Of a stretch of DNA of 64,000 nt, positions 51,879 through 58,518 are shown in pieces. Made by a program: the position numbers and the translations under genes. The notes under the pieces are model-generated. The model saw nothing but the letters and a program-made list of their open reading frames with translations, did no database searches and had not been told where the DNA came from. Origin of the DNA: Thermococcus sp. 21S7 (lineage in GTDB: Archaea; Methanobacteriota_B; Thermococci; Thermococcales; Thermococcaceae); assembly GCF_012027615.1 (NCBI RefSeq), contig NZ_SNUT01000001.1, forward strand, positions 372,001 through 436,000. Reading direction: 5' to 3'. Numbering within the stretch: position 1 is the stretch's first letter; every line of letters starts with the position of its first letter.

Positions 51879-52989
51879 TTTCCTTCTTTTCCAGCTTTTC
51901 TTCCACCCGAATTATCCCCCACGCCAGCAGGTACATGGCGGGTATTGAGAGAAACGCCTTCTCATAGCCGAAGCCGTCAATGAGGAGCCCAACGAGGTAC
52001 GGACCGACGGTTGCACCAAAGAACCCGACCATGTTGACGAAGCCCATGACCGAGCCGAGGTTCTCCCCGGTGGCCTTTTCCGATGTGTATGCGGTGACTA
52101 TGGCGCCGACCGAATAGAACGCCAGCCCCAGGGGAATTATCACCCAGAGGGAAGCCGTTAGGGCAAGAATCAGTGTGAGGAGGGCGTTGAGACCGAAGAC
52201 CACCGCTATGCTCCTCCTCCCTATTCTGTCGTAGAGGCCGCCGCCGAAGAGGGAACCTGCGATTCCGATAACCGAGAGAAGGGAGAACAGCAGGGACGCG
52301 GTTTCAAGGGAGACGCCCGAGTTCACAAGGAAAGATACCAGGAACGTGAGGAGGCCGAAGAAAGCCGCCAGGACTATGAAGTTCGCCGCGCTGAGCAGAA
52401 AAACGTTCCGGGGGATTGAGAAAGTGACCCTCGAAGGTTTTGAGACCTCCCCCTTAACGGCGAAGGCAAGGGCTATTCCGATTGCCAGGCTCAGCGCCGA
52501 GAGCCCCAGGAAGGCGTAGCGCCATTCGAGGCTCATCGCTATGGGAACGACTATCAGGGGGGCTATCCCGCTGCCGACGGGCGGGCCGACCATGAAGACG
52601 CCCAGCGCGGAGCCCTTCCTCTCGCGGTAGACCTCGCTTATCAGCGCCGTCGCCGGGGCATAGTAGAGGCCGGAGAAGAGGCCGTACAGTGCCCGAACCG
52701 CGAGCAGTTCCCAGTACTCGCGGGCAAAGATTATGAGGGCGGATGAGAGCGAGTAGCCGATTATGCTGAGGACAAGGAGCCTCTTCCGCCCAAAGCGGTC
52801 ACCGATGTACCCGGCTGGAACCTGTATGAGCGCGTAGGGTAAAAGCAGGGCCGTCATCAAAAGCCCGGCCTCGGCGTTGTTTATCCCCAGCTCTGCCTTT
52901 ATCATTGGAATGAGGGGAGGGATTGCCATCCTGTGGGCGTAGTTGAAGACCCAGCCGAGGCTTATAAGGGCAAGGAGCCTTTTCCGCAT
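51865..52989 (-). CDS. MFS transporter, 374 aa
   Basis: A twelve-helix major facilitator protein with the signature [14 protein letters not shown] after helix 2 and its second-half copy [14 protein letters not shown]. No substrate-specific motif is recognised. It converges on pan with overlapping 3' ends. Confidence 0.9.
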
Positions 52990-54013: not shown

Positions 54014-54504
54014 TGGTGATAAAGTACGAACCCCTGAACCGGCGTGAGAGGATCATGAGGCTCTTCAGGGAGGCCATAGAGGCGGAGAACGCCAGAGACC
54101 TGGAGACCGCCAAGCGGAAGCTGGACGAGATAATGGAGCTGGCGAGGGACGAGGAGCCGGAGTTCTACTTCGAGGCCTGCTTCAGACTCGCGGATGTATT
54201 CCTTCAGGAGGACAACTGCAGGGGAGCCGTGAAGTGCGCGGTGCGGGGAGTGTATCGCGCACCCAGCGAAGACCTCTACCGGCTCGGAATAAAGAGGCTC
54301 GGGGACATCCTGTTCATAATGAAGGAGGAGAACCGGCTCGGCGAGATATCCAAGGACATGGACGTTACGCTGGACCTGGTGAAGGACGACGAGGAGCTTT
54401 ACCGCTTCGTCCAAACGCTCATGAGGATAGCGAGGGGAGAAAGGGTCGGGGAGAGATTCTCGCGGGAGGAGTTCAACGAGATAATCAGGCTCCTCACAGG
54501 ATAG
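54010..54504 (+). CDS. TPR-like helical protein, 164 aa
   Basis: Helical pairs resembling tetratricopeptide repeats are visible (FREAIEAENARDLETAKRKL; FEACFRLADVFLQEDNCR; LYRLGIKRLGDILFIM). The start overlaps the rio2 stop (ATGATG), so it is translationally coupled to the kinase and may be an adaptor in ribosome assembly (inference). No exact family is assigned. Confidence 0.65.
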   Translation: MMVIKYEPLNRRERIMRLFREAIEAENARDLETAKRKLDEIMELARDEEPEFYFEACFRLADVFLQEDNCRGAVKCAVRGVYRAPSEDLYRLGIKRLGDILFIMKEENRLGEISKDMDVTLDLVKDDEELYRFVQTLMRIARGERVGERFSREEFNEIIRLLTG

Positions 54505-55441
54505 AGTCAAGAACGCGCCTCACGTAGTCCCTCCCAGGACTTTCGGGGAAGTTGTAGGGTTCTTTCTTTGGCCTTTCGTTGTAGTACGGCCTGTTGCAGC
54601 CTGGACAGCCGTGGGTGGCGAATATCTCGGGCGGAATCACCGAGGCAAGCTCATCAACATCGATTCCAAACCTGACGAGGAAGCCTTTCTCATCGAACTC
54701 GAAATCCTCCGGCGCGGCGAGCCCCTCCTTTATGAGATAGTGGGCCACCTGGATTCTCCTGTACCTGGCAAGGCTCGGGGGCTTCGCGTTCTCAAGGCGG
54801 GTTCCCCTTATGGGCGTGAAGGCGAAGAGGGAAACCCAGGCACCCATCGAATACGCCCGCCCAATGGCCTCCACGGCCTCCCTATCCGTCTCTCCGAGGC
54901 CGATTATCAGGTGCACGAGGGCCTTTCCATTGCCAAAGACGTCGATGACGTCTTTCGTGAAGCGCCACATGTCGTCCCAGGAGTAGAGGGAGTCCTTTAT
55001 CTCCGGATAGAGCCTCTCGCTGGCCACGTCGAGGCCAACGCCGATGTAGTCAACCCCCCTTGATTTGAACTCCACAAGAGTGCCCCTGTCCACGGGGGTT
55101 ATCGAGACCGAGACCGGAAGGCCCAGCGGCTGGAAGAGGTCGAGGAGTTCGACGACGTCGGAGACCAGGCCAGGATAGTCAACCGTCTGGAGGCATATCC
55201 TCGCAAAACCGCCCGCTGGAAGGCGTTCAATGACTTCTTCCACATCAAAGGCAGGCCAGGTTATGCGCGACAGCCTCTTGAGGTCCGCCCCGCTTCCCCT
55301 AGCCTGGGGACAGAAGGCGCAGTTGTTGCGGCAGCGGCCGTCGTGATAAGTCATGAGGTACGCGGTGGTTGGTCTGGCCAGCATCCGGGCCTTTATCAGC
55401 CCCATCGCTATGGCGGTTCCGTAGGAGACCCTAATCTTCAT
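54494..55441 (-). CDS. Radical SAM protein, 315 aa
   Basis: The radical SAM cluster motif is CRNNCAFC at about residues 34-41. GVDYIGVGLDVASE and HLIIGLGETD are typical of biotin- or lipoate-synthase-like members. A C-terminal CPGCNRPYYNERP could bind a second cluster. The reaction is not deducible. GGAGGTAGG precedes the ATG, which overlaps the end of the MFS gene, so it is the third gene of the unit starting with the asparaginase. Confidence 0.85.
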   Translation of the reverse strand: MKIRVSYGTAIAMGLIKARMLARPTTAYLMTYHDGRCRNNCAFCPQARGSGADLKRLSRITWPAFDVEEVIERLPAGGFARICLQTVDYPGLVSDVVELLDLFQPLGLPVSVSITPVDRGTLVEFKSRGVDYIGVGLDVASERLYPEIKDSLYSWDDMWRFTKDVIDVFGNGKALVHLIIGLGETDREAVEAIGRAYSMGAWVSLFAFTPIRGTRLENAKPPSLARYRRIQVAHYLIKEGLAAPEDFEFDEKGFLVRFGIDVDELASVIPPEIFATHGCPGCNRPYYNERPKKEPYNFPESPGRDYVRRVLDSIL

Positions 55442-56613
55442 TTTTTCCTACCTCCCAGTATGAGGGGTGCGTGGACTATTATAAGTGATGCGGCCGCTAT
55501 GAACGGGAGCAGCGGGAAGACCCCGGCGTAGCCCCTGATGCCGGCGACGTAGCCGAGGGTCACCTGACCGCCGAGCATTCCGAGGTCAAAGAACATCGTG
55601 TAGACGCTCGAACCCATCGTCCTTATCTTCTGAGGAAGGTTTCCAAGGGCCATTAACTGCATCGCGGGAACGGAGAGGCCGAAGCCGGCCCCGATGATGA
55701 ATGCACTGACGTAGGAGCGGGGCGGGAGCCTGTAAAGGATCAGCACTATGTAGCCGAGGATAACGAGGAGCATGCCCGCCCTTATGACCGGAATCGGGCC
55801 CATCCTGTCGGCACTCTTGCCGCCAACGAGCCTCATTACGAAGCTCGATATCCCGATGACCATCATGTAGAAGCCGAACAGGCTCTGGGACATGCCCAGT
55901 ACCTTGTAGAGCGCGGGGAGGTAAGTTATGACGCCGGCGTAGGAGAAGGAGAAGAAGAACAGCGCCAGCGATGCGGCAACGAAATAGCTCCTGAGGAGCT
56001 CCGAGTAGCTGACGTCCCCGTGCCTCTCCCCCCTCCTGGCAACGGCCCTTCTGCCATCGAGCCAGACCGGGACCACGAGGGCGAGGCCAACGAGGGAGAA
56101 CGCCACCGTGAAGGAGAAGGCTCCCACAAAGCCGAGGAGGTCGGAGAGGTAGCCGCCAAGGGCCGGGCCGATTATGTTGCCGAGGGAGAACATCATGCCC
56201 CTCCAGCCCAGCGTCTCGCCGACGCGTCCCTCAGGTGCGAGGTCAACGGCCGTGGATAAACTTGAAGGAAAGAATATCCCCATGGAGAAGCCGTGAATCG
56301 CCCTGGCGAAAGCGAATATCCACAGGTTTCCAAGGAGCGCAGAGGTTATGTAAAGGAGCCCGGCCAGCATTCCCAGGACGTTGCCGGCCATCATGGCCTG
56401 GAACCTGTAGCCCCTGTCGCCGATGAGGCCGCCTATGGGCTTTGAGAACAGCGAGACGACGGAGGCAACCCCTGCGACCAGGCCAACGAGAAAGGGGGTG
56501 GCGTTGAGGGTTATCGCGAAGGGCGATATTATGGGGTTGACTACGCTTATTCCCAGGAAGAAAAAGAAGGTCGAGAAATTGAGGAGCCAGATGTCCCGGA
56601 GCGCTCTGTCGAT
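55438..56613 (-). CDS. MFS transporter without a canonical start codon, about 391 aa
   Basis: A major facilitator protein whose reading frame is open from the stop of the asparaginase gene (56617-56619). The first ATG in frame is at 56394, which would remove 73 residues that clearly encode the first two helices (DIWLLNFSTFFFFLGI; FLVGLVAGVASVVSLF) and the signature GGLIGDRG. No ATG, GTG or TTG lies upstream in frame. An ATC at 56613 has GGGGGT seven bases before it, the position of a start codon. Either ATC is used, or an ancestral ATG has changed, or the sequence is wrong. Confidence 0.8.
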   Translation of the reverse strand: MDRALRDIWLLNFSTFFFFLGISVVNPIISPFAITLNATPFLVGLVAGVASVVSLFSKPIGGLIGDRGYRFQAMMAGNVLGMLAGLLYITSALLGNLWIFAFARAIHGFSMGIFFPSSLSTAVDLAPEGRVGETLGWRGMMFSLGNIIGPALGGYLSDLLGFVGAFSFTVAFSLVGLALVVPVWLDGRRAVARRGERHGDVSYSELLRSYFVAASLALFFFSFSYAGVITYLPALYKVLGMSQSLFGFYMMVIGISSFVMRLVGGKSADRMGPIPVIRAGMLLVILGYIVLILYRLPPRSYVSAFIIGAGFGLSVPAMQLMALGNLPQKIRTMGSSVYTMFFDLGMLGGQVTLGYVAGIRGYAGVFPLLPFIAAASLIIVHAPLILGGRKK

Positions 56614-56616
56614 GGC

Positions 56617-57537
56617 TCAAACCCCCGCTACGGGTTCGTCCATCCCCTCCTTCATGAAGGCGTGGCTCATGTGCTTCGTATTCTTCGCGAAGCCCACGTT
56701 GCCCTTGGCATCAACCATTATTATGCCCATCGTATCGGCGCCGAAGTAGCGCGTTGCGAGGCTTATGGCTGCATCGCTCGCAGCCTGGGCGTCCATTCCA
56801 AGCCTGACGAAGTCGGTGGCGCTCTTGGCCAGGGCGAGCTTTATCGCCACCTCGCCGAGTCCCGTGCAGGAAGCCCCGGCAACTTCGTTGGCGTAGGTTC
56901 CCCCTCCGATTATTGGAGTATCACCAACGCGGCCGAACATCTTGAGGAACACCCCGCCGGTGGACGTTCCGGCAACGACCTCCTCGCCGTCGAAGGCGAC
57001 CGCCCCGACCGTGCTCCTAAGGACTTCGGGATACTCCTTGATCAGCTCGTTGAGCTTCTTCCAGTGCTTAGTTTCTCCGCTTTCAACGAGCTTTTTCCTC
57101 AGCTCCTCCCACTGCTTCAGCCTTTCGTCGGTCACCGGGCTGTACTCCTCGAAGCCCATGAGCCGGGCGAACTTAACCGCGCCCTCGCCGTTGAGGAGCA
57201 CGTGGTCGGTCTTCTCCATCACCTTCCTCGCGACGCTTATGGGATTCCTAACACCCCATATCCCTGCAACGGCGCCGGCTTCGAGGGTTCTTCCGCGCAT
57301 TATTGCCGCGTCCATCTCGACCTTGCCGTCGAGGGTGAGGACGCTTCCGGTGCCCGCGTTGAAGAGAGGATTGTCCTCAAGGGCTTTGACGGCTTCCTCA
57401 ACAGCGTCTAAAGCCGAGCCTCTCTTGAGTTCGCGCCAGCCGGCCAGAACAGCCTCCCTAACGCCCTCGATGACCTTTGGAATGCGCTCCTCATTCCTTA
57501 TCGTGCCGGCACCGCCGTGAACTATTATCGCAACCAT
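56617..57537 (-). CDS. Isoaspartyl peptidase/L-asparaginase (Ntn hydrolase), 306 aa
   Basis: A plant-type asparaginase or isoaspartyl aminopeptidase that matures by self-cleavage before a Thr. Motifs: VHGGAGTI at the N-terminus, NAGTGSVLTLDG, the new N-terminal nucleophile in RSTVGAVAFD, STGGVFLKMFGRVGDTPIIG and GGTYAN. Its role is likely repair or degradation of isoaspartyl peptides. The ATG at 57537 follows GGTGGTTCTC. The MFS and radical SAM genes follow on the same strand. Confidence 0.92.
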   Translation of the reverse strand: MVAIIVHGGAGTIRNEERIPKVIEGVREAVLAGWRELKRGSALDAVEEAVKALEDNPLFNAGTGSVLTLDGKVEMDAAIMRGRTLEAGAVAGIWGVRNPISVARKVMEKTDHVLLNGEGAVKFARLMGFEEYSPVTDERLKQWEELRKKLVESGETKHWKKLNELIKEYPEVLRSTVGAVAFDGEEVVAGTSTGGVFLKMFGRVGDTPIIGGGTYANEVAGASCTGLGEVAIKLALAKSATDFVRLGMDAQAASDAAISLATRYFGADTMGIIMVDAKGNVGFAKNTKHMSHAFMKEGMDEPVAGV

Positions 57538-57603
57538 GAGAACCACCGTAATAAAAAGTCCTCGAACGGTTAAAAGGATTGTGGAAACGAAAAGATAGGA
57601 ACT

Positions 57604-58518
57604 TCAGCTAAGGGCCATGTTGATTATCGTCTCGCCGATATTCTCAAGGTACTCCAGAATCCTGCGGTAGCTTTCAAGGGCTATTGACTGACGGTAATCG
57701 ATGGAGCGTATCTCGCCCTTCAACTCAAGCATGAGCCTGTCTATCTTGCCCAGGTCCCTCTCCTCTATCTGGGCCATCATCTGGCTGAACTTTTCCTTGA
57801 GGTACGGCACGTTTATCTCGCTGGGGTTCTCGGCTATCCGAGTTATGTGATCCCCTATGCGCTCGATGTTCCGGACTATGAAGAGTATACCGAGCAGGTC
57901 GAATGTTCTCCTGATTATGCCGCTCTCCTCTGTAACGCCGCGTTTGCTCAAAAGCCGGTTGACGGCACGGATTATGAGGAAGTAGAACCTGTCCAGCTCG
58001 TTCTCCAGGTCGTTTATGTCGCGCAGAATCTCGCCGTCCCCAGGGTTTTGAATGAGCAGCTCAAGGTCTCCGAGCATCGAGATGATGAGCGAGCGGATCC
58101 TGTTGAGGAGTTCCGCGAGGTTCACCTCCTCCTCGTCGAGGAGACTCTTGGCGACTATCCTCTGGGGCTCGTCGAGTATTATCTCGACCCCGGGAAGACT
58201 CTGGAGGACCTTCCTTATCTTGACCTTGTATATTGGCATCTCTTCAACGAGGTGAATCTCAAGGACGTCGTAGCCCTGAATGTAGGCAGAGATGACGAGC
58301 CTGACCGCCATGTCCGGGGAATACTCCTTCGAGATGTCCAGAATCCTCTTCTCACTAACCTCCCTCGGCTCCTTGGGGAATATGGTTATGCTCCCATCCG
58401 GGTTTATGAGGAGCGGAACGACATCGCCCTGCGCAAGTCCGTGCTCCCGGACCCACTTTTTGGGGAGGGATATTATGTATGAACTCCTGCCCGTAAATTG
58501 TATCTTCCTGAACTCCAT
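57604..58518 (-). CDS. AbrB-PhoU family phosphate uptake regulator, 304 aa
   Basis: The N-terminal 50 residues form a SpoVT/AbrB-like domain (KIQFTGRSSYIISLPKKWV). The rest has PhoU-like helical bundles (SMLGDLELLIQNPGDGEIL; RNIERIGDHITRIAENP, with the metal-binding E..D...R pattern). It would tie phosphate transport to transcription. The ATG at 58518 follows GGTGGTATCT. Confidence 0.88.
   Translation of the reverse strand: MEFRKIQFTGRSSYIISLPKKWVREHGLAQGDVVPLLINPDGSITIFPKEPREVSEKRILDISKEYSPDMAVRLVISAYIQGYDVLEIHLVEEMPIYKVKIRKVLQSLPGVEIILDEPQRIVAKSLLDEEEVNLAELLNRIRSLIISMLGDLELLIQNPGDGEILRDINDLENELDRFYFLIIRAVNRLLSKRGVTEESGIIRRTFDLLGILFIVRNIERIGDHITRIAENPSEINVPYLKEKFSQMMAQIEERDLGKIDRLMLELKGEIRSIDYRQSIALESYRRILEYLENIGETIINMALS

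Follow-up and report, generated by a model that had tools for sequence, protein, structure and literature searches.

An MFS transporter gene that appears intact and under selection probably has AUC as its start codon in one set of Thermococcus species. The gene lies on the minus strand at 55,438–56,613 of the 64,000-nucleotide stretch of Thermococcus sp. 21S7 DNA analysed here (the window), and runs from an ATC codon through a TGA stop (391 codons plus the stop). Both initiation at AUC and the insertion of methionine there are what we infer from the comparison with orthologs. The reading frame is open back to the stop of the upstream asparaginase gene, as the original prediction had it, and the coordinates given then proved right; stop to stop, it spans 392 codons, from the base after the asparaginase TGA to the stop at 55,438–55,440. 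The protein matches PF07690 (MFS_1) over residues 13–348 of the 392-residue frame (E = 2.8e-50; 171.6 bits against a curated cut-off of 33.4), covering profile positions 2–344 of 347. Its named relatives come from Thermococcus MAGs, and among relatives of solved structure NorA is nearest in sequence (E = 6.4e-9).

Upstream on the same strand is an Asparaginase_2 family gene (plant-type asparaginase / isoaspartyl peptidase; 56,617–57,537; PF01112, E = 9.5e-94), which starts at an ATG at 57,537, with an alternative GTG at 57,546. Downstream, also on the minus strand, is a gene for a LipS2-family lipoyl synthase subunit (54,494–55,441; 398.5 bits to NF053743 LipS2, cut-off 270), whose ATG overlaps the MFS stop (ATGA). 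In 83 of 84 genomes the asparaginase gene lies immediately 5′ of the MFS gene in the same orientation, the remaining locus ending at a contig edge, and in 81 of 84 loci a LipS2 match shares that strand. The asparaginase–MFS–lipS2 order (54,494–57,537 in the window) is thus widely kept.

The minus strand at the junction of the first two genes reads GTA GCG GGG GTT TGA GCC ATC GAC AGA GCG. It contains a Shine-Dalgarno-like GGGGGT (56,621–56,626) that overlaps the last asparaginase codons, the asparaginase TGA (56,617–56,619), a GCC spacer (56,614–56,616), and the ATC (56,611–56,613). The TGA shares the reading frame of the MFS gene and lies 3 nt before the ATC. As originally described, ATC stands at the expected start and no ATG, GTG or TTG does. 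In this genome, the MFS frame contains no ATG, GTG or TTG between the asparaginase stop and codon 75, the first in-frame ATG (56,392–56,394, minus strand), and ATC is the sole near-cognate codon between that stop and the conserved MFS N-terminus. The window was also crudely screened for similar cases, taking the 45 coding-like ORFs for which three partly syntenic genomes supplied relatives. Eight of these have at least 20 codons before the first ATG, GTG or TTG; the MFS gene has 74 such codons, with 9, 1 and 47 changes at the three codon positions. Of the other seven, four (at 52235, 60510, 60807 and 62990) are antisense to longer ORFs, two (34603 and 61189) show changes resembling those of non-coding DNA, and one (46493) has no aligned codons before its first canonical start.

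The same junction recurs across the genus. The 16-mer GGGGTTTGAGCCATCG is present in one copy each in 14 of 61 Thermococcus genomes, and a reversed-pattern control gave 0 matches. A protein search placed the transporter in 89 of 94 family genomes at E ≤ 1e-60, and the 5′ junction was read in 84 of them, five genomes with partial matches (G071, G076, G085, G094 and G115) being left out. The start codon is GTG in 39, ATG in 31 and ATC in 14. The asparaginase stop could be placed in 83 of these (GTG 38, ATG 31, ATC 14); the 84th (G080, locus L070), at a contig edge, reads TTTAGTG like the GTG type and was counted as such. Two further loci (L045 and L046) with the same ATC junction were taken as those of G066 and G033 by matching sequence and were not recounted. 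The comparison with orthologs that had been called for therefore finds ATC in 14 Thermococcus genomes and a canonical codon, ATG or GTG, near the asparaginase stop in the other 70. Canonical starts lie −4 to +17 nt from this stop, the commonest distance being −1 (39/69), against +3 at the ATC junction. Several canonical codons lie near the stop in 19 of these 69 loci, where the nearest was taken; the exact start of some is uncertain, though it is always canonical. At the start, relatives reading GTTTA-GTG-GAC align with GTTTGAGCC-ATC-GAC, and ATC is aligned with the ortholog ATG or GTG in all 14 genomes of the type.

Letters at the junction are conserved beyond what the encoded amino acids require. 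The 19-nt block GCGGGGGTTTGAGCCATCG (56,610–56,628, minus strand), which spans the asparaginase end, Shine-Dalgarno sequence, stop, spacer and start, is identical in 14/14 genomes and is the longest invariant run in the asparaginase plus MFS alignment (~2.1 kb); the next longest is 13 nt. Third positions of the MFS gene differ by 2.6 to 50% among the same genomes (median 37%). Among fourfold sites with an invariant amino acid, 12 of 133 are invariant in the asparaginase gene and 13 of 144 in the MFS gene from codon 3, and all three in the last three asparaginase codons are invariant, versus 25/277 elsewhere. Wholly invariant codons form a run of six at the junction (next best run, three), and amino-acid-invariant degenerate codons are written with a single codon in 5/5 cases there versus 85/464 columns elsewhere. 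The frozen letters correspond to the Shine-Dalgarno sequence, stop, spacer (GCC in 14/14) and ATC. In GTG-type relatives, the Shine-Dalgarno sequence and GTG are frozen likewise (17 hand-picked loci). The ATC shared by 14 genomes and the frozen Shine-Dalgarno sequence and spacer support the earlier suggestion that ATC may be used under translational coupling.

We consider it likely, from these comparisons, that the conserved AUC start is used by Shine-Dalgarno-assisted termination-reinitiation. The MFS gene sits between asparaginase and lipS2 in a cluster whose three genes are all read in the same direction. Ribosomes would end asparaginase at UGA, be held by pairing between GGGGGU and the 16S anti-Shine-Dalgarno sequence, and begin again at the AUC 3 nt further on, using the usual initiator tRNA, whose CAU anticodon is mismatched at the third base. 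They would thus reach the transporter by reinitiation rather than by de novo entry. As a weak start, AUC probably keeps the transporter low relative to asparaginase. In the Haloferax work of Huber et al. (2023, PMC10666635), a gap of 13 nt lowered coupling by 60% in one pair, and at 22–23 nt little or none of it remained; a 3-nt gap is therefore compatible with reinitiation. In E. coli, excess IF3 is reported to cut reinitiation without a Shine-Dalgarno sequence almost threefold and to inhibit non-canonical starts (PMC2268962), suggesting by analogy that a non-canonical reinitiation site would need a Shine-Dalgarno sequence next to it, such as the one at this junction. Five points weigh against reinitiation at AUC: AUC is a poor start codon in E. 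coli; overlaps of −4/−1 nt are reported as by far the commonest coupled arrangement (PMC10666635), whereas the distance here is +3; in Sulfolobus, aIF1 reportedly helps to discriminate against non-canonical starts (PMC6237735); the Shine-Dalgarno sequence is no stronger than in relatives; and the in-frame TGA formally allows readthrough, which is weighed below.

The placement of GGGGGT at a suitable distance, part of the original prediction, was borne out: it lies 7 nt 5′ of the ATC and pairs with the genome's own 16S 3′ end (GGCUCGAUCACCUCCU). Pairing of GGGGGU with ACCUCC of the 16S rRNA is worth −9.8 kcal/mol in 14/14 genomes, near the mean of −10.2 kcal/mol for 71 other rows, and compensation for ATC by a stronger Shine-Dalgarno sequence was accordingly not found. 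A longer pairing involves all 13 nt of GGGGGUUUGAGCC and the 16S end GGCUCGA(UC)ACCUCC (−19.8 kcal/mol). We give it little weight because equally good pairing is shown by 120 of 63,974 27-mers in the window and by 4 of 226 crudely called starts. Part of the 16S stretch concerned presumably lies in helix 45. A more specific reading, in which AUC would be a dedicated set-point where reinitiating ribosomes escape discrimination, mRNA–16S pairing and coupling replacing the third base, is tentative and on balance unlikely. The equally good background pairing and the presumed overlap with helix 45 count against it, as does the occurrence of the same context with ATG.

That occurrence was found with a loose pattern (GGGGGTTTGAGCC plus ATG or ATC, at most 2 mismatches) in the 61 genomes. 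It gave 142 matches, 14 of which are the ATC junction (reversed control, 61). Eight others were picked by hand, a choice that gives no rate. Seven of them end in ATG, and all seven begin ORFs that stay open for 196 codons or more, up to where the stretch taken ends, with a stop codon at −6; they represent five different genes, three of the sites being one gene in three genomes. GGGGGTTTGAGCCATG in G013 is the same as the ATC site except for the last base and lies ahead of an ORF that stays open for 222 codons or more. One-letter variants of the junction context occur as well, among them GGGGGTTTGAACCATG, which in G022 links the DNA polymerase genes DP1 and DP2. This indicates that the context is used with ATG in the genus, with only the third base of the start differing. 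The eighth match, GAGGGTTTGAGCCATC with ATC in G000, was discarded as a gene start, only 12 codons following it.

A DP1-like gene end with a nearly identical Shine-Dalgarno–stop–spacer arrangement precedes DP2 in locus L218 (~650–665, G022) and a different ORF in L222 (G035). The sequence TGGGGTTTGA(G/A)CCATG starts an ORF in three genomes (L216, L217 and L220), with the rpoB match 8–9 kb away. In L216, the single copy tested, the ORF encodes a PF01663 phosphodiesterase, and upstream of the ORF there is only a short or doubtful frame ending at TGA.

Relaxed translation machinery was rejected as an explanation, aIF1 being identical between G000, of the ATC type, and G012 and G084, both of the GTG type. 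The tRNAs recovered include one with a CAU anticodon, which from its general features we take to be of the initiator type. Neither the aIF1 identity nor the recovered tRNAs point to genome-wide relaxation.

Low-frequency readthrough of the UGA would instead give an asparaginase–MFS fusion in which ATC is an ordinary isoleucine codon. In 14/14 genomes the TGA stands in the MFS frame amid invariant surroundings, and a fusion would be topologically possible, as both N-termini would be cytoplasmic. Nevertheless, the 70 other orthologs have their own ATG or GTG, and 62 of the 69 whose asparaginase stop could be placed are in a different frame from asparaginase (7/69 in the same frame). No UCA anticodon was present among the 44 tRNAs recovered from the genome, an incomplete set in which tRNA-Trp is missing, and no Rfam family reached its cut-off within 55,300–57,700. 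Readthrough would also leave unexplained why the Shine-Dalgarno sequence is frozen at wobble positions, and why GCC and the third base of ATC are frozen. We regard it as improbable.

If the start had instead been lost, translation would begin at the codon-75 ATG or not at all, and the upstream frame would be a residue. Codon 75 is ATG in 14/14 genomes, and some of the 14 have earlier canonical codons (25, 44, 47, 53 and 65), none common to all; the earliest is codon 25 in one genome and codon 44 or later in the rest. However, codons 3–74 are constrained like codons 75–390: the numbers of variable sites at the three codon positions are 21, 7 and 61 in the 72 codons of the former and 114, 63 and 254 in the 316 of the latter (14 genomes). 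Codons 3–74 also hold residues invariant across ATC- and GTG-type orthologs, and the N-terminal helices that the original prediction saw in the frame are there, as hydrophobic segments from residue 7 to residue 64. They are followed at residues 65–70 from the ATC by GDRGYR (56,404–56,421, minus strand), in the loop after helix 2, which we take to be MFS motif A and in which G65, D66 and G68 are invariant in 13 aligned sequences. This pattern argues that codons 3–74 of the MFS gene are translated and evolve under the same kind of amino-acid constraint as the rest. A start at the first ATG (56,394) was rejected on the codon-position pattern and because, as anticipated, it would truncate the transporter, removing the first helices and motif A. 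Nor would ATC and the Shine-Dalgarno sequence stay frozen in 14 species, making a lost start very improbable.

Still less likely is initiation at the TTG within GTTTGA, where it overlaps the stop, with a later frameshift into that of the MFS gene; this TTG is present and invariant, but it is in another frame, would give a different peptide, and lies 1 nt past the G run, too close for this Shine-Dalgarno sequence. A sequencing or assembly error of an ATG needs just one wrong base, yet it is hardly conceivable and, like decay of a single gene, was ruled out because the junction has the same letters in 14 of the 61 genomes of the genus. Five of those 14 (G001, G007, G013, G019 and G065) are assemblies of a single contig.

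The AUC start proposed here could have arisen once. In gene trees (FastTree) of 21 genomes, 13 of them of the ATC type (G066 had no rpoB match), the ATC sequences form one clade in the MFS nucleotide tree (support 0.88). In the asparaginase and whole-operon trees, a trio of GTG-type genomes (G012, G067 and G084) is nested inside the ATC type (operon support 0.98–1.0). In the rpoB tree, G012 and G084 sit beside G072, which is of the ATC type, and G008 and G067 likewise fall in with the ATC group; the LipS2 tree disagrees again with the other gene trees, and the concatenated protein tree gives no support for the placement of the trio (0.05–0.30). A single ATC origin could have been followed by recombination, allele replacement or one reversion to GTG. 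The rpoB, asparaginase, MFS and LipS2 trees are strongly discordant among these close species, suggesting frequent exchange of short segments.

Near-cognate initiation is already known. In E. coli, infC, which encodes IF3, has an AUU start with feedback control. Like the MFS gene, infC has a near-cognate AUN start kept by selection; unlike it, infC is bacterial and encodes the fidelity factor itself, and for a transporter there is no obvious feedback rationale. Deinococcus deserti reportedly uses non-canonical starts, ATC among them, as found by proteomics; this too is a prokaryote, but a bacterium with peptide evidence, whereas the evidence for the MFS gene is comparative. The earlier remark that an ATC start would be unusual in archaea holds: in the openly available literature, in the parts consulted, one archaeal case was found, L12ae of Staphylothermus marinus (Smar_1096; PMC2678158). 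It likewise lacks a valid start, and ATC was inferred by alignment at the position of the ortholog start; it is described there for one genome, whereas the MFS start is found in 14 species with a frozen Shine-Dalgarno sequence and stop–start junction. The archaeal termination-reinitiation pairs of Huber et al. share the very short stop–start distance and coupled translation, but as described are mostly −4/−1 overlaps with, by their letters, ATG, GTG or TTG, as opposed to +3 nt and AUC. Proteogenomics of T. gammatolerans corrected 20 starts, and the available text mentions no non-canonical codon (PMC2718504). According to the portion available of a 2021 review, non-canonical translation in archaea had been demonstrated only at elongation and termination (PMC8211752). 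What appears to be new here is near-cognate initiation in archaea that is coupled and kept in 14 species.

A conserved AUC start provides a specific instance of non-canonical initiation that is open to genetic tests, with a bearing on how strictly aIF1 and the initiator tRNA control start-codon choice and on whether reinitiating ribosomes are controlled less. It also matters for annotation: a gene finder restricted to ATG, GTG and TTG would annotate the transporter about 73 codons too short or take it for a broken gene. The gene for aIF1, the start-codon fidelity factor, itself appears to start with GTG in 21/21 genomes (L179–L199), two of which have TTG just before; this conserved non-AUG start recalls the AUU of bacterial infC.
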